Positions 3,303 to 50,665 of a stretch of DNA of 64,000 nt are shown here, piece after piece; the first letter of the stretch is position 1; every line of letters begins with the position of its first letter. Below the pieces are notes generated by a model. It worked only from the letters and a program-made list of their open reading frames with translations, had not been told where the DNA came from and ran no database searches. Position numbers and translations under genes: made by a program. The DNA lies in the NCBI GenBank assembly GCA_916610825.1, contig OU744450.1, positions 1,612,001 through 1,676,000 of the forward strand, written 5' to 3'. The DNA is from Haliclystus octoradiatus (lineage: Eukaryota; Cnidaria; Staurozoa; Stauromedusae; Haliclystidae).

Positions 3303-3815
3303 AGCACTGTAAGAAATGAAATTACGTACTAAGTATCCACTACAATTCGATTTAGATCAATCAATGATTATATTTGGGATAATACTTTGAAATGACATTC
3401 TCAGATCACTAATTTTTTATATATTTTACCAAAATTGTTAATTAGATGATTTTCTTGAATAATAGACGGTTCGATAAACAGTATAATTGAACAGTTATTG
3501 AATGAGTTTGGCTTTTTGAATAGCTGAGTGATTTATCTAATTGGAAACGCATCTAACCGACACTTTAGTTTATTTGCATGTGTTGATATCTATTACTTTT
3601 ATGAAATCTTTAAATTAAATTAGATTTCTCAATTGAACCAATTATTCAATATATATTTGATAGTATTTAGAAGTTAAGCTTTCACTTCACATCAGATTTA
3701 AAAGGTGATGATCTACCATTCTGCGATATTGGATTAAAACCCTGATTTAATTGAACGATTCTTTATGATTTATGATATCGGATTAGAAACCTCGATTTAA
3801 ATATATCATTGAAAA
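3303..3815. other. ACOX3 3' flank, no gene seen
   Basis: AT-rich sequence after the ACOX3 stop. No exon, RNA gene or repeat family is recognisable. It leads directly into the minisatellite. Confidence 0.5.
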
Positions 3816-4747
3816 TTCGGATTTGATTTCTTTGGATTAGGATTTGATTTCTTTGGATTCGGATTTGATTTCTCTGGATTCGGATTTGATTTCTTTGGAT
3901 TCGGATTTGATTTCTTTGGATTCGGATTTGATTTCTCTGGATTCGGATTTGATTTCTTTGGATTCGGATTTGATTTCTTTGGATTCGGATTTGATTTCTT
4001 TGGATTCGGATTTGATATCTCTGGATTCGGATTTGATTTATTTGGATTCGGATTTGATTTCTCTGGATTTGGATTTGATTTCTCTGGATTCGGATTTGAT
4101 TTCTTTGGATTCGGATTTGATTTCTCTGGATTCGGATTTGATTTCTTTGGATTCGGATTTGATTTCTTTGGATTCGGATTTGATTTCTCTGGATTCGGAT
4201 TTGATTTCTTTGGATTCGGATTTGATTTCTTTGGATTCGGATTTGATTTCTTTGGATTCGGATTTGATATCTCTGGATTCGGATTTGATTTATTTGGATT
4301 CGGATTTGATTTCTCTGGATTTGGATTTGATTTCTCTGGATTCGGATTTGATTTCTTTGGATTCGGATTTGATTTCTCTGGATTCGGATTTGATTTCTTT
4401 GGATTCGGATTTGATTTCTTTGGATTCGGATTTGATTTCTCTGGATTCGGATTTGATTTCTCTGGATTCGGATTTGATTTCTCTGGATTTAGATTTGATT
4501 TCTCTGGATTCGAATTTGATTTCTTTGGATTCGGATTTGATTTCTCTGGATTCTGATTTGATTTCTTTGGATTCGGATTTGATTTCTTTGGATTCGGATT
4601 TGATTTCTCTGGATTCGGATTTGATTTCTCTGGATTCGGATTTGATTTCTCTGGATTCGGATTTGATTTCTCTGGATTCGGATTTGATTTCTCTGGATTC
4701 GGATTTGAAATCTTTGGATTCGGATTTGATTTCTTTGGATTCGGATT
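3816..4747. repeat. 21-bp minisatellite with 252-bp higher-order structure
   Basis: About 44 head-to-tail copies of a 21-bp unit of the form GGATTCGGATTTGATTTCTT+T, with T/C variation at one position and occasional other changes. Distinctive variant units (TTGATATCT followed by TTGATTTATTT and a GGATTTGG unit) occur at 4012 and again at 4264, exactly 252 bp or 12 units apart, so a 12-unit block was duplicated. Because 21 is a multiple of 3, long ORFs exist on both strands (ISLDSDL repeats on plus, NPNPEKS repeats on minus). I see no start context, signal or flanking exon that would make either a gene. Confidence 0.95.
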
Positions 4748-5663
4748 CAAATCAAATAATGATAAATCTGAAATTTCACACTGAAAGATAAGTAAGTTGT
4801 TATATTGGACATTCAAGTTCAATATTTGGATCAAACATATGTAGAAAGGCTATATTTAGTTAATGACCATATTGACAATTTCGGATTGACGATAATATCA
4901 ATCTTTCAAATCAAATAACCTGTACATAAAGACCAATGTACCTTATGATTTGCTAGGTGTATGCATATTTTACTCAACTCCTTATTATGCATATTTTATA
5001 TTTTACTTATTTTATGAAGTTAAGTAGAATGCATATACTACATAATGTAACATGCTTTTTTATTTTAACTAGCAGCAAACGAGTACTTTTCTGGCCAATT
5101 GGCCATTCGCAGTGAACGAGGGACCAACTTTTAAGTATATCGCTAGGTCAAGATGAGTTAGACAATAATTATGGTTAAAAAAAATCATCACCTGAGAAAG
5201 TATTTATTTAAAACAGATTGCTAAAACATGATATAAAAATACCTTGCTATAAATACACTTATCTAACATATAAGTTAACCAATAAATTAATTCTGACATC
5301 TATCATGAAAAACCATTCCTGTATTAAATGTTTTGAAGATTATGCACATTATTCAAGTATTGTTCATTTAGAAGTTCCCATTGAGCTAACTGCATTTCCT
5401 CTCTGGGTAGCTATAGAAATTTTCTCCTGTAGGTTTATAGACGTGTTTGAAGAGCTTTGACAAACAATGACACATTCAAATAAAGTTATTCAGAATTTAT
5501 TTCCCTACTACAGTATGTATATATAACAAAAATGCCTGCATTTATAATAAATAATTGTACATTTTTAATTTTAAAACAGTCTACGTATCTTTTTACATTA
5601 TGATGTTTATATATTTTGTTAAACTAAAATAAATATACCAGAAATAAATCAACATTTGAAAGA

Positions 5664-5901
<238 letters not shown>

Positions 5902-5911
5902 GATTTTTTAT

Positions 5912-8747
<2,836 letters not shown>

Positions 8748-8772
8748 CTGTGCAGAAAAGAAATTGAGTTTG

Positions 8773-8929
<157 letters not shown>

Positions 8930-8997: not shown

Positions 8998-9749
8998 TCA
9001 AATAACCTGTACATAAAGACCAATGTACCTTATGATTTGCTAGGTGTATGCATATTTTACTCAACTCCTTATTATGCATATTTTATATTTTACTTATTTT
9101 ATGAAGTTAAGTAGAATGCATATACTACATAATGTAACATGCTTTTTTATTTTAACTAGCAGCAAACGAGTACTTTTCTGGCCAATTGGCCATTCGCAGT
9201 GAACGAGGGACCAACTTTTAAGTATATCGCTAGGTCAAGATGAGTTAGACAATAATTATGGTTAAAAAAAATCATCACCTGAGAAAGTATTTATTTAAAA
9301 CAGATTGCTAAAACATGATATAAAAATACCTTGCTATAAATACACTTATCTAACATATAAGTTAACCAATAAATTAATTCTGACATCTATCATGAAAAAC
9401 CATTCCTGTATTAAATGTTTTGAAGATTATGCACATTATTCAAGTATTGTTCATTTAGAAGTTCCCATTGAGCTAACTGCATTTCCTCTCTGGGTAGCTA
9501 TAGAAATTTTCTCCTGTAGGTTTATAGACGTGTTTGAAGAGCTTTGACAAACAATGACACATTCAAATAAAGTTATTCAGAATTTATTTCCCTACTACAG
9601 TATGTATATATAACAAAAATGCCTGCATTTATAATAAATAATTGTACATTTTTAATTTTAAAACAGTCTACGTATCTTTTTACATTATGATGTTTATATA
9701 TTTTGTTAAACTAAAATAAATATACCAGAAATAAATCAACATTTGAAAG

Positions 9750-9943
<194 letters not shown>

Positions 9944-9953
9944 GATTTTTTAT

Positions 9954-12780
<2,827 letters not shown>

Positions 12781-12805
12781 CTGTGCAGAAAAGAAATTGA
12801 GTTTG

Positions 12806-13163
<358 letters not shown>

Positions 13164-32148: not shown

Positions 32149-35100
32149 TTAGAATGTTAGTCTTTTTACCCAGATTGTTATTTCTTCTCTGAATTGTTTC
32201 CAGTCCCCAATACCAGTTGCTGCTACATTATGAACAGGTAAAGCAGGATCTCTAACAAGAGGCAGTGTTTGAAAATGAGGTAAACGAGATACTGGGTAAT
32301 CTTCAGAGTAATAATAATCTTCCCATTGTATACTACAGAGAAATACAGTAGATAATATTAGATCATAGCTTTTTCGTAAACATGTGATGTAATGTTAGTG
32401 AATGGTGACTCGAGATTCTAGATTAAATACTAGGCCCTTTACCACTAGATCTTCTGCTAAGCTTTTTGTCAACTATTAAAGGGGCAAAATTGACCAGCGA
32501 CCGCTGCGAGCACAAGTTGAGTTTATGCTTAGCGTAATTCAACCGTCTCGCTTTGAAACAATTGTTATACGCATGCCTAATTTGTAATAAAATTTATGTC
32601 AACAATGAACATTGTGTTATAAACAATAAGCATGCACGTGATCCTAAGTGCGTAGCGCCTGCCGGTCATATTTGCTCCTTTAAGGTACTGTAAGTACTTT
32701 GCGTCAGGCATCTTTGTTCCCCTTATTCATATTCTCGGCAGCAGACTATATGTCAGGCTCACTGATCTATACAATAACATCTATTATTATATTATTATCT
32801 GTATTATATAGATCAGTGGTAAGGCTATGTTTTAACACACGGTAAACATAGATTACATCATGCATATTAGTCCCATAGTTTATGCAATTTCTAAGAAAAA
32901 CTTCCAAGAACAAATAATTGTTTTATAACCAGCTTATGATTTAATATGATATGTAACTTACTCTAGCTGTTCATCTTTAACCAGGATCGCTAATTCAGTT
33001 AATACCTCTTTGTTAAATGATGGTGTTCTGGCCACACAGTCACTGAAAAAAAGGAAAAAAATCTCATTGAAAAATATTCCACAACCAATACGATTTTAAC
33101 TTTGTACTTTCATCTATCATCTATCTCCATATAAATATGATACTATACATAAAAATAGAAATAATTCGGATTGGATCGGCTATACAGGGCCCGATAAAAT
33201 CTGCATGCCTGCCAATCACGGTTGGTTTGAAGACCAAGAAAACATGAACTACCTCAGTTTATAGATTTTCTTAATCAGATACCTGACAGCCAGGGTTGCG
33301 ATTAAATTAATATTTCTAATTGGATGAACTTTTTATAGAAAAATTCGAAAATATGCTTAATAGAAATGTTGGTATTCCAAATGACTATAATATTATTGGG
33401 CCATGCTACCATATGAATGATGATGCTATTATAAGAAATGTCATCTTCTGTAGTTTGTTATCAAATGATAAAATACAGTATAATGCATTTTATTCAATCA
33501 ATTTAGCATCAGAAAGTAGATAGAGTAGCCTGGATTAATCGAGCATGAGCCGTTGAAAAAATGGTTTGTAGCATAAGCAATTATTGGATATACCAAATAC
33601 AGGCAGCCATTGAAAGAAAGAAAGAGCCAAGATTTATCTTTACTAGCAGCAATTCTAAATACGATTTTTGTAGAAAAATTCAATATATTGAATACCTTTT
33701 AGCATTACATTCGCGAAGTGTTTGAATGCCAGAATGTACAGAGTCTTCCAATATAGGGAAGACGGAGTTAAGCAAAGGCGTACATCAAATACTTCGATTA
33801 CATCTCGGAGTACATTCCCCATCCTGGGGGAAAGGGGATCGGATATCGATTGAGATATTTCTTAATGTAGATCTATCTAGAGGCTTACTTTTCAATTTGT
33901 TGATACGCGTAAATTGTAAGTAACGCAAGTAGGTAAGCATTTGGTCGATTTAGAACACTCAACCAATCGACTTTTTCACTCCATTTCTTTACAATTCTTA
34001 TAAGATCTTTACACTGAAATAAAAGAATCCAGCGCAGCCGTTATATAAGTACCAGTCTATAGCAATTGTATTTATCAATTTAGTAGAATATCTGATTATC
34101 GGCTGTTAGCCACAAAACGCTGGTAAAAGCTACATAGCTATTCTCACTGGCGTAATTGGTTAGGTTCGGGTTTTACAAGTTGTAATTTCTGGGTATTTTT
34201 AATCCAAACGTAAACTGAATTTCAGATACAATTCCGTTACTTTTCAGTTATAAATTCTAATAATCACACCAGGGACAGACATATGTGGAGGTGAAATGAA
34301 TATAAATTATAAATCACTAAACACATAGTGCTACATTGATAATTTTTTTAACTTTATAAAATGCTTCTATGGGGATAGAGCTTCAACAAACCTCTTAAAA
34401 AGAACATCCGGAATTGTCTCCACTGCACTAAGGCCACACACAGGCGAATATAATAATCATTGATATACATTAAGTTCAGACTATGCACTTACTTTACTGG
34501 TTTGCTTAGAAATGAATTGCACTTGACGATCCGACGCAGCCACAATATACCTTCAGAAAATGATAATAATAAAAGTGGATTAATTACTCAATGTTTTTCA
34601 AATTTAATTTCAACTTTTTAGAGTTTAGCTGGACATTTCAAATATCTTGTGATTAGAGAATGTATGTCATACAATTAGGGGAGGGGTGATAAGTTGATAT
34701 ATATACACAAGGACCGTACGGTATAAATTGATCATATTGCAACATTATGAAATTGACCGCTGTGACAGGTACGTGGCTGCTCTTTAGGGCGGTGTATACA
34801 GGGTAAGTAGCACAACAGACAGGTCTGAAGAATATTGAGTTAACATAAATCACTGAAATTATTATGATTATTATGCATTAGGGATTTGATTGATTCGAGA
34901 GGAAATCCACAACTCCAATGAACTTCACTTTGACCCCATTTGTCCTCGACTGTAACGGCCGTAACCAACAATAGAGCTTTTTCACAGGTACCCAAAATGA
35001 GTCCATCGAGAATTTTGAATTTTGAAAACACTATCAATGCCGATGTGAAAAAGATCTACATATATAGCTTCAGCTTTAACCTGAAATTCACTTGACAATT

Positions 35101-38100
35101 TCTGAAATTGACAACAACAAAGTTTGAAATTAACTTAATCAATTTTGAAATTAAGTTGGATATTATTTTTTGAAAAAAAAAATCCATTTGAAAAAGGAAA
35201 TTCCAGAATAATTATGAATCGGTAGAATAATTATGAATAATGCACAAAGAAATATGATTACCTGTATAGCATATCATGCGATTGGTTCATACATGTCTTG
35301 TATAGCGCCCTGTTGCCACCAGTTAACTGCCAATCAATGCTCGGTAAAACCGTAACACTAACACCGTTACATTTAAATAATAATGCAGTTGACGTTTTTA
35401 GGAAATTCGTGCATTTGATTGAATCGACTGATCGTCCTAAGTTGCCACGATTCTTTCGTGTTTCTTCTTTAACGAGTGATTCGATTTTTTCAACTATTCT
35501 TGAAATCCATTTCTCTTCATCGTGTGGTGGATCTATATGGATAGATTGGAAGAATTTTTTATATTTTAATGTTTTCTTTGGGTTGGTAACCTCCGGATCA
35601 ACGGACCATGTAGAGCTTTGTACTCGTTAATTTCAATACACTCTTCGAGGACTGTGAATATGATCGAACTAATGTCTCATTCTTTTATTCAACTCAAAAT
35701 ATACCAAAAGAAGACTCAAACAACGGTACGAAAATGAAGCCTATAGGATATTCAATCAATCTGATTCAGCTTATATTATTCAAACGGCTTCCAACAATGT
35801 CTGGCGATAACATGCAAATGCGATCATACAATTTATAGGAAACTGAGTTTGCCCCAGATCCCTACTTACATAACTTGTTTTGTTCTTGCAAGTAGAGTGA
35901 GTAAAAATCATTTATGGATCCAGTTTAGAAGATTATCAAAGGGCCAGTAAAGAAAGGTCTGGAAGATCTCTCGGTCCACCTGCCTCTTTGGTCCACCTTC
36001 CGTAAAGGTCTAGACGACAGGTCAAAATACAAACGGAATATGGATGTGAACTGGATGTGATAAAACACTGGCTAGATAAATGGCATTCAATTCGTCTAAA
36101 ATCCAAGTATTTCTATACCTCCTAAAAACACAATCAAATCCAATTGTGATTTCCCTTTCACTGTAACTCCTTGACCATACGCTCCAGCTCTTAGAACACG
36201 TGTTACAGAAACATCTCTTTCTTCCTAAAATATATAAAATATGTATCGTTGAAACTTCAGGTACAGTACTGCACTGACAATCATAATAGGTTATCGAGGT
36301 ACAGTAATTAACAATGATGGTTTCGTTTCCGGTTGTTGTCGCTGTCGGCCGCGTTTTATTTTCTGCTCTTATTTTTTTGAGAATTTTATTCCAAACATCA
36401 AATAGAAATAGTATATTCTTTATTGAAATAGCCTATGGTTAAATCATGTGTATATAAGTTGTACATAGAAAGACTAAGCAGAAAAGAACTAATGGAAATG
36501 AAGCCAAACTGTTATTCGTAATTTCGTATGTATATCTTGTCGTCTGAGCTGAAAACTTTTGAAACCCGTGTGTCCGTGTTGAATACGTTATAATTGTTGC
36601 TGATTGGTTGTTTATCATTGATATTGGTCTCTATCTGGTTGGCTATCTGTATTTTGTTTGTATACCTGTTCTATTAAAGTATTATCATTGTTTTTGATGC
36701 AATATTCTATCAATTTTGATTTTCTCAAAATTCAAACTGTTTATTACCGTTAAAACTATTCAAATCTTGTCGTCAATATTTCTTGTTTGCTGATTGGTGT
36801 TTTGTCGCTGCTATTGTTCTCCGTCTGGTTTGGCTATTTATATTTTGTTTGGATCTATCTATTTCTCTGTCACTGGTTTGTATTGAAATGATATCGTGTT
36901 GTTTACTGTTCTAAATTTGGAATACTGTCAATTGATTTTAATCTTGCTTTTAATTCGTTATTATTGTTCCTGATTGGATTTTGTTACTGAAATTACTGTA
37001 TTTCTATTCGTATTGTTCTCTGGTTTGCTTACCTTGCATTTTTACATTGCCTCTATTTTATTGTCGACGCTGTTTTCTGTTTCAAAATTATAATGTTCCT
37101 CCCGTATCTTGTTACATGCTGTCTCATATTTATAAATATATATTCTATATTTCCTGTTTGCAAAAGTTGTCGAGCTGAATCAGATGTGACACTCAATGAA
37201 TCCAAGACTGGCTATAATTTTCTGTACATACAAAACAATTATTTTAGAACATATCCTTTACCTTTATTTAAACATATTTTAATTAGGAAACATTCTTATT
37301 GTTGTAAATATTATTTTAACTTTTTGCTATTGCTTTTGCTTCTTGCTGGAGATGTTGAGCTTAATCCTGGTCCGCCCATTTGTGCTCTTGACATCTTAGG
37401 CGGTCGAACTCTCTACGACAGTACCAGCGGTTTGAAGATCTGCCACCTCAACTCTGGACAAGGAGGGGTACTAACCCATCTAGATAATATCATTCAATTC
37501 ATTGCGGAGTATTGTCCGGATGTCCTCTGTTTGACAGAGACCTGGTTATCACCTGAGATACCAGATAATCTTGTGTCTCTGGATGGTTACAGTTCTCCCG
37601 TCAGGAACGATAACAGTGGTCGATTTGCTGGCAAGCAAGGTATATTAATTTATGTTAAGTTAGGTTTTATTTATTCTATTAATACTATTTACAATAATTT
37701 CAATTTAATGAGCGGAACCATAGAATTACAAATTCCACGTACCCGTCAGAAACTATTAGTTACTTGTATATATAGACACCCTCAATCCCCCGTAAGTTAT
37801 TTAGATGAATTTTCAAATTTTTTAAGCTTTGTAGATAGCAATAATGTAAATAGTGTAATTTTAGGAGATTTTAATATAAATATGATAGATACTAATTCTT
37901 CGCTAACTAAAAAACTAAACTCAATCCTAACTGATAACAATTTTAATCAACACATAAAATCACCCACGCGTATTACAGACACATCATCAACTTGTATAGA
38001 CCTAGCAATTTCCAATTTAGATACTAATTTTGTGAGTGGTGTTACATTGGCACGAGTAGCTGACCACCAAATGAATTTTTTCATTCTCAAATGCACTTCT

Positions 38101-41100
38101 AGACCTTCACAAAATACACACAAACTAACATTGACACGCAACTATAAATCACTCGACGCTAATTTATTAAATTCAGCAATTAATCTAACAAATTGGGATT
38201 TTTTAAATCTATTCCCAGATGTCAATGACTGCTACTACGCTTGGCAGGCTGTTTTCAACACAATCGTCAACGAATTTGCACCATTGAAACAAATTAGAAT
38301 AAAACAAAAAAAAACTAATATTTATCTAGATTCCCATGCCAAAGACCTACGAAATAAAAGAGACAACTATTATAAGCTATTTATCCAATCAAATAATCCA
38401 CAATATTTAAACCTGTACAAATCAACTAGAAATCAATTTACAAATTACTTTAAAAAATGTAAACGAACCTTTTACTGCAAAAACATAGTAGAAAGTAGAG
38501 GCCACCCTAAGCAAATGTGGAAATTTTTAAAACAAATTTTACCTAACAAAAATAATAGCATTAATGTAAATAATATAACTGTAAATAATCAACTAATCAC
38601 AGATAAAAATGTCATTGCAAATGAATTTAATACTTATTTCTTGAACATTGCTAATAAATTATCCTCCCTTATTCCTTTAACAGATCTAAATCCAATACAT
38701 ATTACCAGACAATTCATAAACACTATAACCAACACCAGTAACCTTACTAACAAATTCCAACTTGAAGCTATCACAGAATATGATATCCTTCAGTTAATAA
38801 AAAACTTACCTGCCAAACGGTCAGTTGGTATTGATCATTTAGAAACCAAACTAATAAAACTAACAGCCTCAAGCATAGCACCAGCACTAACAAAAATATT
38901 TAATTTATCTCTAAAAAGCGGAAATTTTCCAGAATCCTTCAAAACTGGGAAAGTCTGCCCCCTTCACAAATGCGAATCTGTTATTGAAAGAAGCAATTAC
39001 CGCCCAATATCTGTTTTGCCTGTACTTTCTAAATTATTAGAGAAAATAGTTCACGAGCAATTTAATTATTATTTATCTACTAACAACTTATTAACACCTT
39101 ACCAATTTGGTTTCAGAAAAAAGTACTGTACAGCTTCAAGTGTACTAAATTTTACAGAGTTCTCTTTTGAAAACATCTCAAAACATAAAAATATAGGTGT
39201 GGTAAGTATAGATTTGAAGAAAGCTTTTGACACGGTTGATCATTTGATACTGTTAGACAAACTTAAATTATATGGTAGCGATGAATGTAGCTTAAATTTT
39301 TTTAAAACTTATTTAATAGGTAGAAATCAAACTGTAAATATAAATAATACAAACTCTGATCTAGGTGAAATTAAATATGGCGTTCCGCAAGGGTCAATAC
39401 TGGGACCACTGCTATTCTTGATCTATATTAACGATGTATCTAAAGTTGTAAATAAATGTAAAATAAACCTATATGCTGATGATACCTTATTGTACATAGC
39501 CGATAAAGACCCCGAGATCATTAAAAATTCACTTTCCTCTGATGTAAATAGTATTTATTCATGGCTAAACGCTAATAAACTAACTTTAAATGTACATAAA
39601 ACCAACTGTATGCTAATCGGAACAAAACAGAAAATAAATAGATACGAACCTTTACAATTAGAAATTAACAACGAAAACGGAATCATACATAATGCACCAC
39701 TAATTAATTATTTAGGAGTCCGCATTGATCCAACACTATCCTTCGATCAGCATATCGAAGCAATGATAAAGAAAATAAATAGAGGCCTAGCAGTACTAAA
39801 ATTTGCACGGAAGTTTATCCCACAATATACAGCAAAGATGATCTTCAACACCATAGTCTTGCCACATTTCGACTACTGCGCTGTCGTATGGGGGAATTGT
39901 AAAAAACAACACATCGATCGCCTCCAGAGACTACAAAACAGAGGAATGAGGGTCATTCTCCGCTGTAATTATCGAACTCATGTCTCAGACATGCTCAACC
40001 AACTTGGTTGGCTACCAGTCAGAGACAGACTAACTACACAACAGCTAATATTCACACATAAACTAAAATTCAATTTAGCTCCTCCCTTGCTCTCCAATTT
40101 GTTTCAAAAACCACACTCCATTAGAACACGTGCACATTCCCACAATGACATCTACATTGAGTCAAGCCATAGACACTCATTCAAGTATGCTGGTGCTCAT
40201 AAGTGGAATGACCTTCCGTCTGAGATGAAGATTGTTGCTAGTGGAACCAGTTTTAAGCATCTTCTCAAGAAGCAATTGCATAGCAAATCGTGACAAATTT
40301 TCTTTTTTTAGCCATAGACTTTATTGTAAATATTATCTATATACCAACTATAAACCTTACCTTTTATACTTATCGTGTACACATGTACACATATATATTA
40401 TATTTGTTTCAATCAGTCCTGTGAAAAAAAGCTCCTGTAGCTTATCAGGTTCTGAATAAATGATGATGATGATCTGAATAAATGATGATGTGCATACGGG
40501 AAAATCTTAAATCAAGGATGTTCCATCAACAATTTCAAAAATTTCTTGTAATTGTGCTTAACATAAGAAGAATTGAACTTTTCCACATATATTAAGTAAA
40601 TGTTTCTACCTTCAAATACTAATATATTTGAAATATTATTTATTCTTCTTACACTTACTTCGATAATCTTTGTAAGTGAGTTTGCAACTTGTTCGATGTA
40701 GCGAATATCGACTTCATCGGGTTTGCTGAATTTGATAAGTTTTTCAATACTAAATTCTTGATATCTTGTCATAGCCTTCAAAATAAAATGTTAATAAATT
40801 GGACTATATACATGAAAGGAATTAGATTACGTAATATGTAAGAGAAGCTGGACTACAGGTTTGATCATATCTTTTCGACTGTGATGGCTCAAATCCTCCG
40901 AAGGTCAACTCAGCCTTGATTTTATCTAAAACATTAATGGGTACCATATTCTGTTGGCGGATGGAATGGTCGGTCCAGAGAAGATTGCATTGTGAGTAAC
41001 TGCAGCGTATCGCTCGTATTGTCAATCCTATTTGCCATGACTTGTGTTGAAATAGATCTTCAGTGTTGCGGCTGAGGCAGTAAAGAGTATTTACCATCAA

Positions 41101-41582
41101 TCATTTCTCAGCAAAAGAGCAATTCCTCTAGAAGTAGAAAAGCTGTACTGGTGCCTTCAGTAGGGAGATTACCCTCTCAAATATTATACTTATAAACAAC
41201 GAGACCTGTATATATGAATACATGCATATCAAATCTAGCTATGAGAGGAGATAAATTGCCACCACTATATACATGTGGCCTTATATATATATACATGATT
41301 CAATATATAATGTTGAGACGATAGATAATAGATAATAATAGATAATACAATGTTGGATCATAGTTTTTATAGTATATAACCTATATGAACTATATATAAA
41401 CTATGGTTGGATTGAATAGATTGCCTGGTGATCGCCTTGGCGTGAAACTTTGAGTAGCAAACATGATTGTCTGATTTTTGACTTCATATTTTATATCTTA
41501 TACAGGATTAAATAAAAAATTATAGTTTAGACATACTGTATAAGAGTGACTATTATACGAAAGATCCAATGATATGGGGATG

Positions 41583-41613
<31 letters not shown>

Positions 41614-44230
41614 TCATTTTTCCACGAACCGGGTAAGCTTACAGCTTTTTTTCACCGGGGTGGTTGGTTAATTTGTTAGTATTTTGAAGCTTGTGTGCGT
41701 TTAATAGCCGGATGCCCTTCCTGACGCCAACCTATAGTGCTTCGGACAGGGATTGAACCCGAGACCCTGCGGGCCGTGGTCCAACACCCTAGCCACTACA
41801 CCAAGGCCGCACTTGATGAATATTAAGTTACAAATTTTCTAAAGGCTAGGCTTACGTCATCAGCATCCTCCTCTAGATTCGCGATGTAATCTTGACAGAA
41901 TTCCAATTGTTCTTGTAGAGAATGGATCATGACATCTTTCTCTCTCATTTTCTGTTTTAATGAATTTACCAACTCAACTCTGTTTTCTGTCAAGTTTTTC
42001 TTTTCATCGAGTGCATGATCGAGTTGGGTTTGACTGAAAATACACAAAAACCACCTATACTCAATTAAAGGCATAAAATTGAACGATGACCTTCGTGCTT
42101 AGAGTCTTCGAATGTGCACTGATTCACTATACATTACTTGTGGTTTGAAAAATGGCATTCACTTAGTCAACTTTGGGCCCGCTAATGGTCAATTTTATGC
42201 CACAAACTACTCACAAAATAAAGTGGAAATATAAAAAATATAAATAAATGAATAAATACATAATAGATTTATTATTGTCTTTACTGAATGTAATAATGCT
42301 CAATGCTATACAGCAGAGCGTGTAATATAGGTTAAATTCAATCGATATAATTTAATCGATCATTTAAGTCTACAGGTATAAAGTGTATATATATATTTTT
42401 TTATAGTTGAAAATAGTCAAAAATTAGACATTCATTCAAGTTTAATAAATTGCCTGTTGATCGGCGTGAAACTTTAAGCAGCAAATAAATGTCTAATTTT
42501 TGACTATTTTCAACTATAAAAAAAATCTATATACCTGTAGAATTAAATCTGCAATCAATGCTACTGTATTTATTATATAATCAGTTAGTAACTCACATTT
42601 CTTGTTCTCTCGTCTCGTGTTCTTCATTTATTCTTTCTAATTTCGCATTGTAAGCTGATTTTAAACGTACAATGTAATCTGTATCAACAACGAGGCCATC
42701 AGTCATGTATGTGAAATTTGAAACGAGGATAGAAACATGAACGCAAAGGAAACCATCTTCATCATTGAATTCACTCTTTTCATTTAACAACTAAAATAGA
42801 AATTTAAATCATCATCATTTAGTTTAAAAGATTTCAAGTAGATTTTTGAATTCTTTATTGGCGAACTATACTTAATATACGAGTAATTTATATTAATACA
42901 GGATACATACGTTGAAGCTAGCCTCATTCCACCATGGCTCTCATTTCCGCGCGACTCTCCTTCCTTTGTGGGGCTCATTCAGTAGGTTCTCTGAAGATCA
43001 CGTGGAAGTGAGGGCCGGGATGGATTGAGGCTACATTAAAACTATATTAATGGTATAATGACATACCTTCTTCAAGCTAACAGGCAATACTAACATTTGT
43101 TTTTCTTTACATTTTTCAAACACACTGCCACGGTCTTTATCAACTTGACATACAACGTTTTGATAAGCATTTGCTGGACATAATAATTCCATTTTCCAAT
43201 GCACTTCCATCCGACGTTTTAATTTTGAAATTCTTTTAATTTTATCATTAGTACCTTTAGGATCTAAAATCAATTCACCAACAACGATACCATCTTGATT
43301 TGTATTCAAACCAAATGACCATGGAATACCAATATTATCAATGAAATATTTGGGATCACCAAAACTTATTGGATTTTGTGATATTTTTGTTGAATATAAA
43401 ATATATGGTTGGGCATTATAAAACGTAACACCGGCATGAACGATACCATCAACAGCTAGATTTTGTAATTCTTTTGAAGGCATTATCTTTGAACCATAGT
43501 TATTTGTTGAATAATTATAATATTTTTGATTGATCTCAACATGTGAACCATGTTTAATATATATAAGGGCTTTAACACGATGACGTAATTCATCAAGATT
43601 ATCTCTTGAAAGATATAATTTGGCTAGATTATTATCATTATTGTTATTATCATTTTCTTGTTTTTCATCATCAATTTCACCATCAGGAAATAATAATAAT
43701 GACCAATTAGTACCAGAAAATAAAAATTCTGTTGATCTGTTATAAATTTGATCAGCTTGTATGTGACATGGTAATTTATCTAAAAATGTTGTTGATTCTA
43801 AACGTATATCGATTTGTAAATGTAATGAATTATTTATTATAAAACCTGGTATTAATTGAAGGGTTTGTAAATTTATCATTTTACTATAGCCAACACCACA
43901 ACCATAAATTTCAAATGAATTATCTTCTTTCAATTTTTCTTCTGATATTGTAAAATTAGGATCATATTTATTAACTATATGAAATGCTAATCTAGCATTA
44001 CACCAATTAGAAATTTGTTCCTTATTTTCTTGTTGACCATACCAACGTAAAAACATACCAAAATAATCGTTTTTCTTTGAAATTTGTATTTTCCAAACAT
44101 GACCAGCGTAATTAAATGCTTTGGATATTTTATAAATTTCCATTGTTGAAAATTGTTGTACGGCAAATACAAAATATGCTGTATCACGCGGTTTAGTATG
44201 TAAACCAAAATTAACTAATTGAACAGCCAT
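32149..44230 (-). CDS. MATH-MATH-coiled coil-OAS-like protein (predicted pseudoenzyme)
   Basis: Ten minus-strand exons: 44230-43067, 42790-42597, 42033-41856, 40775-40659, 36224-36119, 35622-35262, 34550-34493, 34013-33889, 33042-32962, 32332-32149. Phases agree at all junctions, giving 855 aa. ATG 44230 has A at -3 and G at +4; an in-frame ATG lies 21 nt upstream. First MATH domain at about residues 40-143 (AFNYAGHVWKIQI to PGFIINNSLHLQI). A second MATH-like domain at about 265-415 ends PVSLKKLLNEKSEFNDEDGF. A charged coiled coil follows at about 430-510. From 513 on it matches 2'-5'-oligoadenylate synthetase: VTRVLRAGAYGQGVTVKGKS, TVLPSIDWQLTGGN, CKDLIRIVKKW, RPNAYLLALLTIYAYQ, and the OAS1_C-type PLVRDPALPVHNVA. 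The acidic triad is largely lost (Q579, D581, T677). The acceptor at 35623 is weak. The MATH and OAS halves could be separate genes (OAS start at ATG 40772). Confidence 0.7.
32476..32683. mobile_element. MITE with TTAA ends, copy B
   Basis: Same structure and about the same length as 29295-29501: TTAAAGGGGCAAAATTGACC at the left, TTTGCTCCTTTAA at the right. It is in an intron of the MATH-OAS gene. Confidence 0.75.
36330..37092 (+). other. Probable 5' UTR/promoter region of the LINE
   Basis: T-rich sequence with three imperfect internal repeats of a TGCTGATTGG...CTGGTTTGGCTAT...ATTTTGTTTGG motif (near 36597, 36788 and 36966), directly before the LINE ORF. Such subrepeats are common in LINE 5' regions. 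The exact 5' end was not found. Confidence 0.5.
37093..40500 (+). mobile_element. CR1/Rex-like non-LTR retrotransposon, intact ORF (1066 aa)
   Basis: One open frame (37093-40293) followed by a 3' UTR ending in AATAAATGATGATG-type repeats. N-terminus: hydrophobic segment (about residues 74-85), then the 2A-like motif AGDVELNPGP (residues 85-94). Next is an apurinic-type endonuclease (LTETW about 147, GDFNIN about 258, ADHQ about 324), then reverse transcriptase (AFDTVDH about 711, PQGSILGPLLF, catalytic YADD about 794-797). The C-terminal region resembles the CR1/L2/Rex lineage. It has no frameshift or stop, so it may be recently active. It is antisense to the MATH-OAS gene, in the intron between 40659 and 36224. 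Confidence 0.92.
37333..37374 (+). other. 2A-like ribosome-skipping motif in LINE ORF
   Basis: Encodes a leucine run followed by AGDVELNPGP, matching the canonical D-V/I-E-x-N-P-G-P consensus in full. In other animal LINEs such motifs at this position promote co-translational separation between Gly and Pro. Here that would release an N-terminal peptide of about 93 residues from the endonuclease-RT. Confidence 0.85.
40815..41195 (-). repeat. Dispersed repeat (~370 bp), copy 1
   Basis: Shares long similar stretches with 60130-60500: GGGTACCAT, GGTCCAGAGAA, ATTGCATTGTGAGTA, CTGCCATGA-like, CTCTAGAA and GTGCCTTC. A fragment occurs near 425-480. Short ORFs in both copies give similar peptides (WQIGL, SYSQCN), which reflects shared nucleotide ancestry. 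Type of element unknown. It is in an intron of the MATH-OAS gene. Confidence 0.6.
41587..41812 (-). mobile_element. tRNA-derived SINE, minus-strand copy
   Basis: Reverse complement of the SINE at 28308-28540: poly-T start (41587-41609), body, complementary B box GGGATTGAACC (41749-41759) and complementary A box at the right end. In sense orientation within an intron of the MATH-OAS gene. Confidence 0.88.
42370..42540. mobile_element. Long-armed hairpin MITE in intron
   Basis: Arms of about 55 bp: CTACAGGTATA at the outer left and TATACCTGTAG at the outer right, with TAGTTGAAAATAGTCAAAAA and its complement inside. The loop is about 55 bp, and similar loop sequence recurs near 41417 and 51722. 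Outer CTA/TAG fits a TA target site. Transcribed in the MATH-OAS pre-mRNA, it would fold into a long duplex. Confidence 0.7.
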
Positions 44231-46039: not shown

Positions 46040-49000
46040 TTAGTAAGCATGATTTGCAACGAAAAGACTATCAGAAGCACCATCAGTTGCCTGATCCTCC
46101 CCCTTATATTTTCCCACACATGCCAAACCATTAAGACCAGAACGTCGAATCAATGTCTTTTGAGCTTCCTTCACGTTTTCCTGTTTACCTTGCCATGCTT
46201 TTAACACACTAGCTTGTAAAGCACGACCATAAGAGAATGTTAATGCCCATGGTTTGATTCCTATGGATAAACAGAATCATTCATCTCAAAGAATATCATC
46301 TGGGTATCATTCTTACCACTGTATAGCAAATTCATAAGCAGGGTTGTTTTAATTCAAGGAAGAGGCACAACAGGCAGCGTCCCACCTTCCAGAATTTAAG
46401 ATTCTAACGTAAGTTTGACGGTAACCGCCTGATGAACGCAAAGTAAACGTGTGAAGCTCCGAGTAATGGAAAAGGCTTTTGCCTCATCTTTGTGTCTATT
46501 CTATATTATGTTCTGTCTTAACAAAACATTGAGCGCTCTCACATACATGTGTTCACCTCATATTATATTATATTATTATAAATATTGTAGTTATAAATAT
46601 TCTATCTTACCGTCGGTAGTATTAATAGCATTTAAATTGATTGTTGCATTAACTTCTGACTGTCCACCGGAAAGGAAAGTGACGCCAGGAACAGCAACTG
46701 GTACTGTTCTCCTAAGTGCAGTGACAGTAGCCATACCAATTAATTCTGGTGAACATTTCTCTTGACAACTTTGACCTGTACATAATATAAAAATGTTTGT
46801 GCATTAAAAGGCAATTGTCTTATTTAGAAGTCTCTTTGTCAGCTACAGTCAAATCTGTTATAGCGGTCACCTGTCTATGCAGCAGCCACCTGTCTATAGT
46901 GGTCACTCTTGCAATGTCTAAAATAGTATTTTCTATTGAATCAAACCTGTATATAAAGGTCACCTGTCTATAATGGTCAATTGATCTACCTCTCGTAGCT
47001 GGCCGTTATATACAGGTTTCACTGTAGTAGCAGCCTTGGGTTGTGGTGTAAATTGATTGATGTTTATAAGAATTTATTTTATCTTTATGTCTGAATATAT
47101 TTGCTACAGTGTAACACGCTTATGTGTAATTTGAATAAGTGAAAACCTCAAGGCCCCGCGAAGCGAGGGGCGCAGCCCCGAGCTCAGGCTAGGGGCCGCG
47201 AAGCGGCCCCGACAGCCAGCCCAGATCCGCGCATACGGAGTCAAAATTCAACCAAGGATACTGGAGACCCAAATTTCAGCCGATAGTTTCTCCTGCGCGC
47301 TTTACAAAGATGGTGTCTGTGTCGCAAGAATGTTCCACTAGTTATTAGCATCGTGGTTCTGTTTTTATCAAGATCGATGATGTATTTTATTTTATATGAA
47401 TTTTTAAACTTTTCCTTTTCTGTGATACCCTTTGTTCTACTCTTTTGTCTTTCACAGTTTTTTACAGTCACGTGGTCTTGCGATTTTGTCCGCTCGCTGG
47501 TGTGTTGTGCTCCCGGGCACGTAGTTCTAACGCTGTCACGTTTACACATGGTTGTTAATTGTTACCCTCATTGTTGTTGCTTGGTGATTGCACCTATTGT
47601 TGTTTTTTATTCACTATGTTATGCTCTGTTAAATTCGTCAAGTTTAATCATTTTATGCACAAGGAAGTAGTGCTTTCTATCAACATTGGACGAGATTGTT
47701 TCTGCCTAAGTATGGAATCATTCTGTTAGGCTGATAGTGATTTTTTGCACTGAAAGGCGGTTATGAGGAAATGGGCTTTAATCTGGAGAGTTGTGCCTAC
47801 TGGACTACATGTTTGACACCAACTATTGACTGTAAAATACTTTCTGGGGTTCAAAGAGCTTCCTGGCGGATGGGAAAAGATCTCTGCTGTTTGTTTCTTT
47901 CTTTGCGTTTGTTTAATTCAACGTTAATTTTATTCTTGACAATCCTGTTTAAAGCCTCCCTGAAAAGACCAAAATTCTATGGGGTGGTGGGGCTGATAAG
48001 ATTGGGGAACACTGATATCGCCAGGTAGCATTTCAGAGAGCTTGTGCTCTGCATCAATGAATACATAAATACATTGTGATCAATTCAATCAAGCTATCAG
48101 GTCAACCCAGTCTGTGAACAGTTATTTTACTAAACACTTATCAGGTTATAACTTTGTGGGCATATTGCTGTGTGACATTCTTATAATGAAGTTACTTTAC
48201 TGGTTTTTCTGTACGCAAACACAAACGTAATTGAAAAAATGGCATTTAAACGAAGTTTTTCATCAAATAAAGTTGTTTAATCGTGTTGAATAGAGAGATA
48301 TGCTTCGGAACTGGACTATGGATTATGAGAGTATCCTATGGAAGGACCCGTAAGGGTCCTTCCATACAATTATATCCCTGCTACTGGCGTATCTGAAACC
48401 TGGCTTTGAAACTCCATTAAACTACTGTACATACTTTGATTTGCACCTAAGTGGGTTATAGACTGAGCACCACAGATCTAAAACGGCAGGTTTCGCAGGG
48501 CAACTTTGAATTCACATTCCAAAACATGACAGAAAAAATTAAACTTTGCATTAAGAAGGATCTGACCATGAAATGATTTGTAAATTCCATTTCGGTTCGC
48601 TCCACAATAAAATTTAACAAAAACAAGAAAAGGGAAAACAATAAAGAACAATTTTTATGTGGAATTGGAGACATTGAACATGTAGACACAATATCGATGG
48701 ATTAGGCAATTGGTAATTCTGATCGGATCAATTGAAGATGAGATATATAGATTAAGACTACAGTATAAAGATGCATTGACCTTTGCACTTAGGGAGTCGT
48801 GCAGTTTACCACGCTATGGATGGGATCACCAAAAACAGACAATATCAAGGCAGTCCAACCGGTATGGGGTATCTGAGTTTTTCTGAAAATATTACTACAG
48901 CAGCCTAATTTCAAATTGAGAAATTCAATTTCTTAAATATTTAGCATTTTTCTAAATGAGGCAGGAAACGTCAAGAGTAGGCCAATCTAATAAGAATCTA

Positions 49001-49721
49001 GAACAGCTAAATTCTTACCTGGAGTTACCATGTTTGGTTTGAGAAGAGTTCCTTCAAGATAAACGTTGTGATCTATTAAAGTCTTGTAAACACATGCTAA
49101 AACTCTTTCTGTAACACGCTGAGACGTCTCGATAGTGTGTTCTCCATCAATTAAAATTTCTGGTTCAACGATAGGAACTATTCCAGCCTGTTGACAGATA
49201 GATGCATAACGAGCCAAGACCTGGGCATTTTCTTGGATAGCAACATTGCTGGGTACGTTGTTTTTAGTGGAAATATGAATGACACATCTCCATTTTGCAA
49301 AATCTGCACCATCCTTTTTATATTGTTGTACTCTTTCAGCCAAACCATCTAGACCTTGAGTTGTTCCTTCCTGGCATGTTCCATGCAAAGGAACAACACC
49401 TTTGTCAACTTTGATGCCAGGAATTACACCTTGATCTTTGAGTAATTTAACAAATGGAGTTCCATCATCAGCCTTTTGATAAAGAGTTTCATGAAACAGA
49501 ATCACACCGCTGATATTTTCACTAAACTTTGGACCAGATGTGAAGAGTAGTTGCCTGTAAAGCCGACGATTGGTTTCGTTGTTTTCGACTGAAATTGTAG
49601 CCAATCTTTTTCCTATTGTACCTGTACTTTCATCAGCTGCAAGTATACCTTTTCCTGGTGCAACAATTGCTCTTGCGATACGGCTTAGTTCATCACGTAA
49701 TTCTGGAGTTAAGTGTGCCAT
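46040..49721 (-). CDS. ALDO: Fructose-bisphosphate aldolase, class I
   Basis: Complete minus-strand gene with three coding exons: 49721-49019, 46775-46611 and 46260-46040. Phases 1 and 1 agree; total 1089 nt, 362 aa. Starts [12 protein letters not shown]. The family signatures are all present: [14 protein letters not shown], the substrate loop [36 protein letters not shown] and the Schiff-base lysine segment [14 protein letters not shown]-terminal [21 protein letters not shown] and the terminal SLFVANHAY (last Tyr needed for full activity) follow. It cleaves fructose-1,6-bisphosphate in glycolysis. An ATG 33 nt upstream is in frame but extends beyond the normal N-terminus, so 49721 is preferred. 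Intron 1 (46776-49018) carries MITE and GC-rich repeat DNA. Confidence 0.96.
46846..47024. mobile_element. Mariner-like MITE, TA-flanked
   Basis: 179 bp between TA dinucleotides. Starts CAGTCAAATCTGTTATAGCG and ends TATACAGGTTTCACTG, with internal CACCTGTCTATA-type subrepeats. Further copies at 57357-57532, 57534-57705 and 58114-58290. Confidence 0.8.
47145..48080 (+). repeat. GC-rich hairpin block and putative element
   Basis: 47152-47235 is strikingly GC-rich in an AT-rich intron. It holds stacked hairpins: CCCCGCGAAGCGAGGGG, GGGCGCAGCCCC and the perfect GGGGCCGCGAAGCGGCCCC (47192-47210). The following roughly 850 bp contains short ORFs on both strands and ends near AATGAATACATAAATACATT, a LINE/SINE-like 3' end. 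I cannot name the element. Confidence 0.45.
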
Positions 49722-50665
49722 GATGTAGGTTTTCAAGTTAAGATATTGGTACACAACAGCTAGATTTTGCGTTCAAAATCAAAAGAGAAACGTGTCAAGG
49801 CAAAACAGAAAGTTTATGGGATGGATACCATTTTTAGGGGACGTCTTTATTATTTAAGAAACACGTGATCAGTAAACTGGGTCTGATTGGCTACATCATG
49901 TATGACGACAGAGATGTCCACATTCAAAAGTAAATGTACCAAAACTATAAAACTATTATACTGTTGTTGATCAGAACATAGATCTATGATCAGAAGTAAC
50001 TTTTCGGGCAATGGAAGTCAAATTATTTTAATCTTAATTTGATTCAATATTCTGAATTTAATTATCGAAGTCAGCATGGTATTATATAGTATCATTAGAT
50101 AACATCAAGATACTGTGTAATATTTAGTTGCTTGATAAAAGGGGCGTGTTCCAAATCAACTGAGCACTCACGACAAGCGGTCTCTATATACAGGATAAAA
50201 TCAATGTATGATGTCACTTGAATCCAATTGAGAGTAGATATTTTGAGTTAATTGTGTAATTGTAACTTTTGACAAACTGTTCACGAATTTCACGAACTGT
50301 GCATCATGTTGTGTGAAGTTCATGAACTGTTCAAGAAAGTTCTGCAGTGGCGTACTCATTGTTATTGTAGAATAGTTGTCATAAATCTTGCCGCATTGAA
50401 GATAGATGAAGCAATAAAATCAGACATCCTGTAGCTTCAAAATGAATCTCATTGGAATATTAATGTTATTTATTGTATATAGAAGTGTTTACAAAACAAC
50501 TACATTGCAAAATATTTACATGTTTTAACAAAAATGATTTAATTTGAATTTAAATTGCATTTTGAAAATATTAAAAGGTGCAACTATATATTATTGCTAA
50601 AAGAGATTTGTATTTCACTAATTTTGATCAATTGTACAGCAAAGTGTTTATTTTATATTCTAATG
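49722..50665. other. Aldolase promoter side / RMND1 3' flank
   Basis: Contains the aldolase 5' UTR and promoter region and, toward the right, degenerate TTCATGAAC repeats (50278-50345). No gene seen. Confidence 0.5.

Follow-up and report, generated by a model that had tools for sequence, protein, structure and literature searches.

OASL proteins bear C-terminal ubiquitin-like domains (repeats), and TRAF proteins carry RING and zinc fingers N-terminal to a coiled coil and a MATH domain, with the helix preceding MATH. The joining of OAS to adaptor domains is a known theme, since oligoadenylate synthase is one of the immune domains with which metazoan TRADD-N is found fused (PMC8195603, in the extract available). 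These TRADD-N-OAS fusions likewise place a TNF-receptor/TRAF-pathway adaptor domain and OAS in one animal protein, and the same extract describes binding of TRADD-N to the MATH domain of TRAF2 (PMC8195603). In the consulted sections of PMC6307210, three D sites are given as critical in OAS, mammalian OASL1 is non-enzymatic partly through mutation of critical D sites, and OAS genes are recorded in three cnidarians, anthozoans by name. In Nematostella, an OAS1 homologue is mentioned as part of the poly(I:C) response (PMC8476169), and its expression is raised in RLRb-high cells (PMC13319465), as far as the extracts of these two papers go. No MATH-OAS protein was found described in the open-access literature on MATH with OAS, covered mainly through titles and the openings of abstracts.

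Here we describe a locus of the stalked jellyfish Haliclystus octoradiatus at which a MATH part lies upstream of an OAS-like part on the same strand. As with the Nematostella homologue, there is an OAS-like protein in a cnidarian and, as in OASL, the OAS-like domain has mutated catalytic aspartates. Unlike in OASL, the extra domain would be an N-terminal MATH domain, not a C-terminal ubiquitin-like one: ubiquitin-like repeats gave no match, and the OAS domain is followed by the stop at 32149. A MATH domain flanked by a helical segment recalls the TRAF family, although here the helix comes after MATH, and no RING or zinc finger was matched in Pfam, the MATH domain beginning at residue 20. In comparison with TRADD-N-OAS, Haliclystus has MATH, not TRADD-N, and the join is a predicted one.

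Gene model and surroundings

The gene model was rederived from the minus strand of the window, i.e. the whole 64-kb stretch of DNA analysed. Its outer coordinates are identical to those of the original prediction, both the start at 44230 and the stop at 32149 being confirmed. The ten exons join into 2478 bases encoding 825 amino acids (512 + 313) with a sole, terminal stop, which replaces the 855 amino acids first proposed. The exons of both parts are real.

Upstream on the same strand is a class I fructose-bisphosphate aldolase gene (46043-49772, minus strand), with three exons by reading. Elsewhere in the window there is a recent tandem duplication (5114-8929 and 9201-12962; 98.1% identity over 3816 columns), the segments of which carry 490-aa frames and long triplet repeats, and a long short-repeat array (3809-4849) with multiple open frames on each strand. 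The mitochondrial contig C33 (18,316 bases) encodes COX1, read with TGA as Trp, and two tRNAs identified by ARAGORN, with anticodons tca and cat; its gene order, judged by eye from the frames, is presumably of the medusozoan kind. The published assembly jrHalOcto1.1 is described, in the part of the source available, as having 33 scaffolds, the longest of 39,977,743 bases, an N50 of 28,991,210 bases and a mitochondrion of 18.3 kb, and polyA RNA-seq (ERR9434978) has been published with it (PMC9975415).

The OAS-like part

Seven exons between 40775 and 32149 encode what is, by homology, a full-length OAS-like protein. The first (40659..40775, AMTRYQEF..., with an ATG at 40772) has an AG acceptor scoring 5.64 and a donor scoring 10.22. 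It is followed by exon 2 (36119..36224), with the GAYGQG loop, exon 3 (35262..35532), with VSVTVLPSID, and exon 4 (34493..34550), placed by splice sites and the joined frame. Exon 5 (33889..34013) and exon 7 (32149..32332, including the stop codon) carry OAS1_C and were located by profile and protein search of the genome, and exon 6 (32962..33042) by protein search. Within the first OAS intron is an antisense frame (36991-40290, plus strand) of 1100 uninterrupted amino acids, LINE-like in that its text reads as endonuclease- and reverse-transcriptase-like.

The OAS homology originally proposed for this part is supported. Pfam OAS1_C (PF10421) matches with an E value of 6e-19 and, at 68.8 bits, clears its cut-off of 19.9. 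Homology of the nucleotidyltransferase core is seen in matches to solved chains of OAS2, OAS1, OASL and OAS3 (7 distinct sequences), among them OAS2 9h1z (E 7.9e-31, from query residue 16) and OAS1 4ig8 (E 3.6e-19, from query residue 44).

We take D75, D77 and D148 to be the catalytic triad in OAS1 numbering, and R195, K199, K204, K60 and K66 to be OAS1 dsRNA-contact residues. OAS1 numbers were counted from the printed positions of the 4ig8 alignment, and the query letters at 75, 77, 148, 60 and 66 were re-indexed. In this alignment D75 is replaced by Q and D77 is kept, so that exon 2 reads QLD in place of the DAD of OAS1, and D148 is replaced by T in exon 3. With two of the three catalytic aspartates missing, the protein, although an OAS homologue, is probably a pseudo-enzyme. 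Of the dsRNA-contact positions R195, K199 and K204 one of three is retained (R195 to V, K199 to S, K204 kept), and K60 and K66 are replaced by R and Q, respectively. The general statement that OAS proteins sense dsRNA, invoked in the original prediction, is therefore not simply transferable to this protein, given the replacement of D75, D148, R195 and K199.

With E values allowed up to 10, the OAS protein has matches at 7 places in the assembly, all of them exons of this locus, and the OAS1_C profile returned 2, both weak (E 0.011 and 0.033) and also from this locus. No second OAS-like gene was thus detected in searches of the assembly, although a divergent one could escape detection, as genes are matched exon by exon and the OAS1_C matches are weak.

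The MATH part and its helical tail

Exon 1 (43067..44230) runs from the ATG to a GT donor as an open frame in phase 0, and encodes a MATH domain (aa 20-142) and an unassigned region (aa 143-388). Exon 2 (42597..42790; AG and GT sites, phase 0 in and 2 out) contains the end of that region and the start of a helical tail, which continues in exon 3 (41856..42033; phase 2 in, 0 out) up to EEDADD and the donor GAC/GTAAGC, with a score of 7.2. An inverted-repeat element in intron 2 (42500-42380, minus strand), perhaps a MITE, resembles by eye the text at 41480-41420 downstream of exon 3.

Of the two MATH domains originally predicted, the first stands, matching PF22486 (3.4e-10, 40.7 bits, cut-off 32) and PF00917 (3.6e-6, 27.7 bits, cut-off 21.2), and the second does not. 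In the region concerned (aa 143-388) Pfam shows no MATH match even with E allowed up to 10, and its two hits there, both to other families, are below threshold. Comparison by hhalign with nine MATH domains of this genome (an alignment of nine of its 14 MATH_2 places, the first MATH domain of this gene included) gave a probability of 0.2%, and BLAST against the first MATH domain gave an E value of 1.9, which is no real match. A second MATH domain was rejected on these three grounds. The region may be a very divergent MATH fold; the fold of exon 1 predicted from its single sequence has a mean pLDDT of 28.8, too low to be informative.

The tail comprises 89 residues with neither Pro nor Gly, and is likely to be helical. 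The coiled coil first proposed for it is unproven, in that 295 of 1000 shuffles equalled its best a/d heptad score, which is not significant in this crude test. MATH exon 1 has a single match genome-wide, to itself (E up to 1), and the 512-aa part gives one weak tblastn match among eight other MATH loci (L007, E 0.76). Frames at four loci (L001, L002, L004 and L006) resemble, by eye, what we take to be TRAF C-termini, and in L001 and L004 a helix is also seen, by eye, ahead of MATH. As MATH exon 1 and the OAS part are each found at this locus only, no paralogue can settle whether they are fused.

One gene or two

In our judgement the locus is somewhat likelier than not to be one ten-exon gene encoding an 825-aa MATH-OAS-like fusion. 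The original claim of a single protein is upheld to the extent that splice sites and phase permit the joining, and amounts to a predicted fusion. As first described, EEDADD ends at 41856 in phase 0, followed by GTAAGC, and AMTRYQEF opens at 40775 in phase 0, preceded by AG. The scores at this joint (donor 7.2, acceptor 5.64) fall inside the leave-one-out ranges of the 10 derived introns (0.8-10.0 for donors, -5.2 to 12.6 for acceptors); the weight matrices were made from these GT-AG introns (8 from this locus, 2 from aldolase), which were hand-chosen and so are biased towards such sites. In addition to these scores and the fitting phase, fusion is favoured by the position of the acceptor, three bases before the OAS ATG, where a first exon standing on its own would require no acceptor.

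The gap of 1080 bases had been described as holding only repeats; 575 bases are repeats and the other 505 gave no repeat signal among the candidates scored (40 of 5975 and 40 of 3714). Nearer the donor is a young SINE of 231 bp (41584..41814), tRNA-like by eye, with at least 39 other copies at 96-100% identity plus one 65-bp fragment (41 matches including the window itself, among the 40 of 5975 candidates scored). Nearer the acceptor is an older dispersed repeat of 344 bp (40825..41168), with at least 39 other copies at 75-79% identity among the 40 of 3714 candidates scored. The repeat-free spacer of 505 bases is like the other introns of the model (276-846 bases, and one of 4434 with the LINE), which also favours fusion.

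Two same-strand neighbours, a MATH gene with its own 3' end and a separate OAS-like gene starting from the ATG at 40772, are a serious possibility, though one we consider less probable than fusion. The MATH part is not, as had been stated, lacking a stop of its own: with the donor unused, translation continues for 10 codons (VSLAFRKFVT, 41823..41855) to a stop at 41825-41823, and the MATH gene could end in this read-through or in another 3' exon. The proximity of this stop and the ATG as second codon of OAS exon 1 both count against fusion, and the OAS1 start falls roughly at this Met, by extrapolation from the alignment of query residue 44 to OAS1 residue 53. So do the four higher-scoring acceptors in the gap (41389, 41380, 41205 and 41125), of which 41125 and 41205 could serve a MATH terminal exon, and the want of a paralogue bearing the fusion. 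An AATAAA lies at 41611, within the SINE, and upstream there is, by reading, a same-strand neighbour, the aldolase gene. There are 13 overlapping TATA-like words in the 1080 bases of the gap, compared with 2.5 per kb for this strand across the window, and the 200 bases ahead of the MATH ATG have none. If this points anywhere, it is to a promoter within the gap; CpG counts did not separate intron from promoter. However, the older repeat comes to within 49 bases of the OAS exon, leaving scant room for a promoter there, and the AG before the ATG demands an extra intron in the leader of the OAS gene, which would perhaps explain that acceptor. Moreover, donors as good as that of exon 3 occur at 0.93 per kb per strand in the window (acceptors at 1.85, true sites counted in both), and this one is sited just where the helical tail ends.

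It is highly unlikely that the two parts share a primary transcript from which the OAS messenger is made by trans-splicing. An AG three bases ahead of the ATG fits a trans-splice site, but a literature search on spliced leaders in Staurozoa and Scyphozoa pointed to work on Hydractinia only. To our knowledge hydrozoans use spliced-leader trans-splicing, and we know of no other medusozoans that do. Least likely of all is a decaying pseudogene, of the OAS part or the entire locus, for although two catalytic aspartates are missing and a 3.3-kb LINE frame sits in an OAS intron, ten exons across 12 kb join stop-free with usable splice sites, and OAS1_C still reaches 68.8 bits against its cut-off of 19.9.

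Under the preferred reading of a single fused gene, an upstream MATH gene was probably spliced into the adjoining OAS gene just before the OAS ATG. The product would begin with the MATH domain, continue through the unassigned region and the helical tail, and end C-terminally in an OAS-like pseudo-enzyme. The MATH domain would grip partner peptides, the tail might mediate oligomerisation, and the OAS fold would bind an RNA, nucleotide or protein partner without 2-5A synthesis. The whole protein would be expected to act as a scaffold, a plausible role that may lie in immunity.

The more secure new point is that this stalked jellyfish has a probably enzyme-dead OAS-like gene, the sole one detected. 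Slightly less likely than not is the full picture, in which a MATH adaptor and an enzyme-dead OAS fold make up one protein, the sole OAS-like one detected, that serves as an adaptor or sensor scaffold. A real join would mean that a medusozoan has combined a signalling adaptor domain with an OAS fold, and that the catalytic centre has been lost although searches detected no second OAS gene as cover. The locus would then be evidence for OAS folds serving as scaffolds, not enzymes, outside vertebrates. In the full picture, the OAS fold of this lineage would have shifted from 2-5A synthesis to adaptor or sensor scaffolding, paralleling mammalian OASL and the TRADD-N-OAS fusions.
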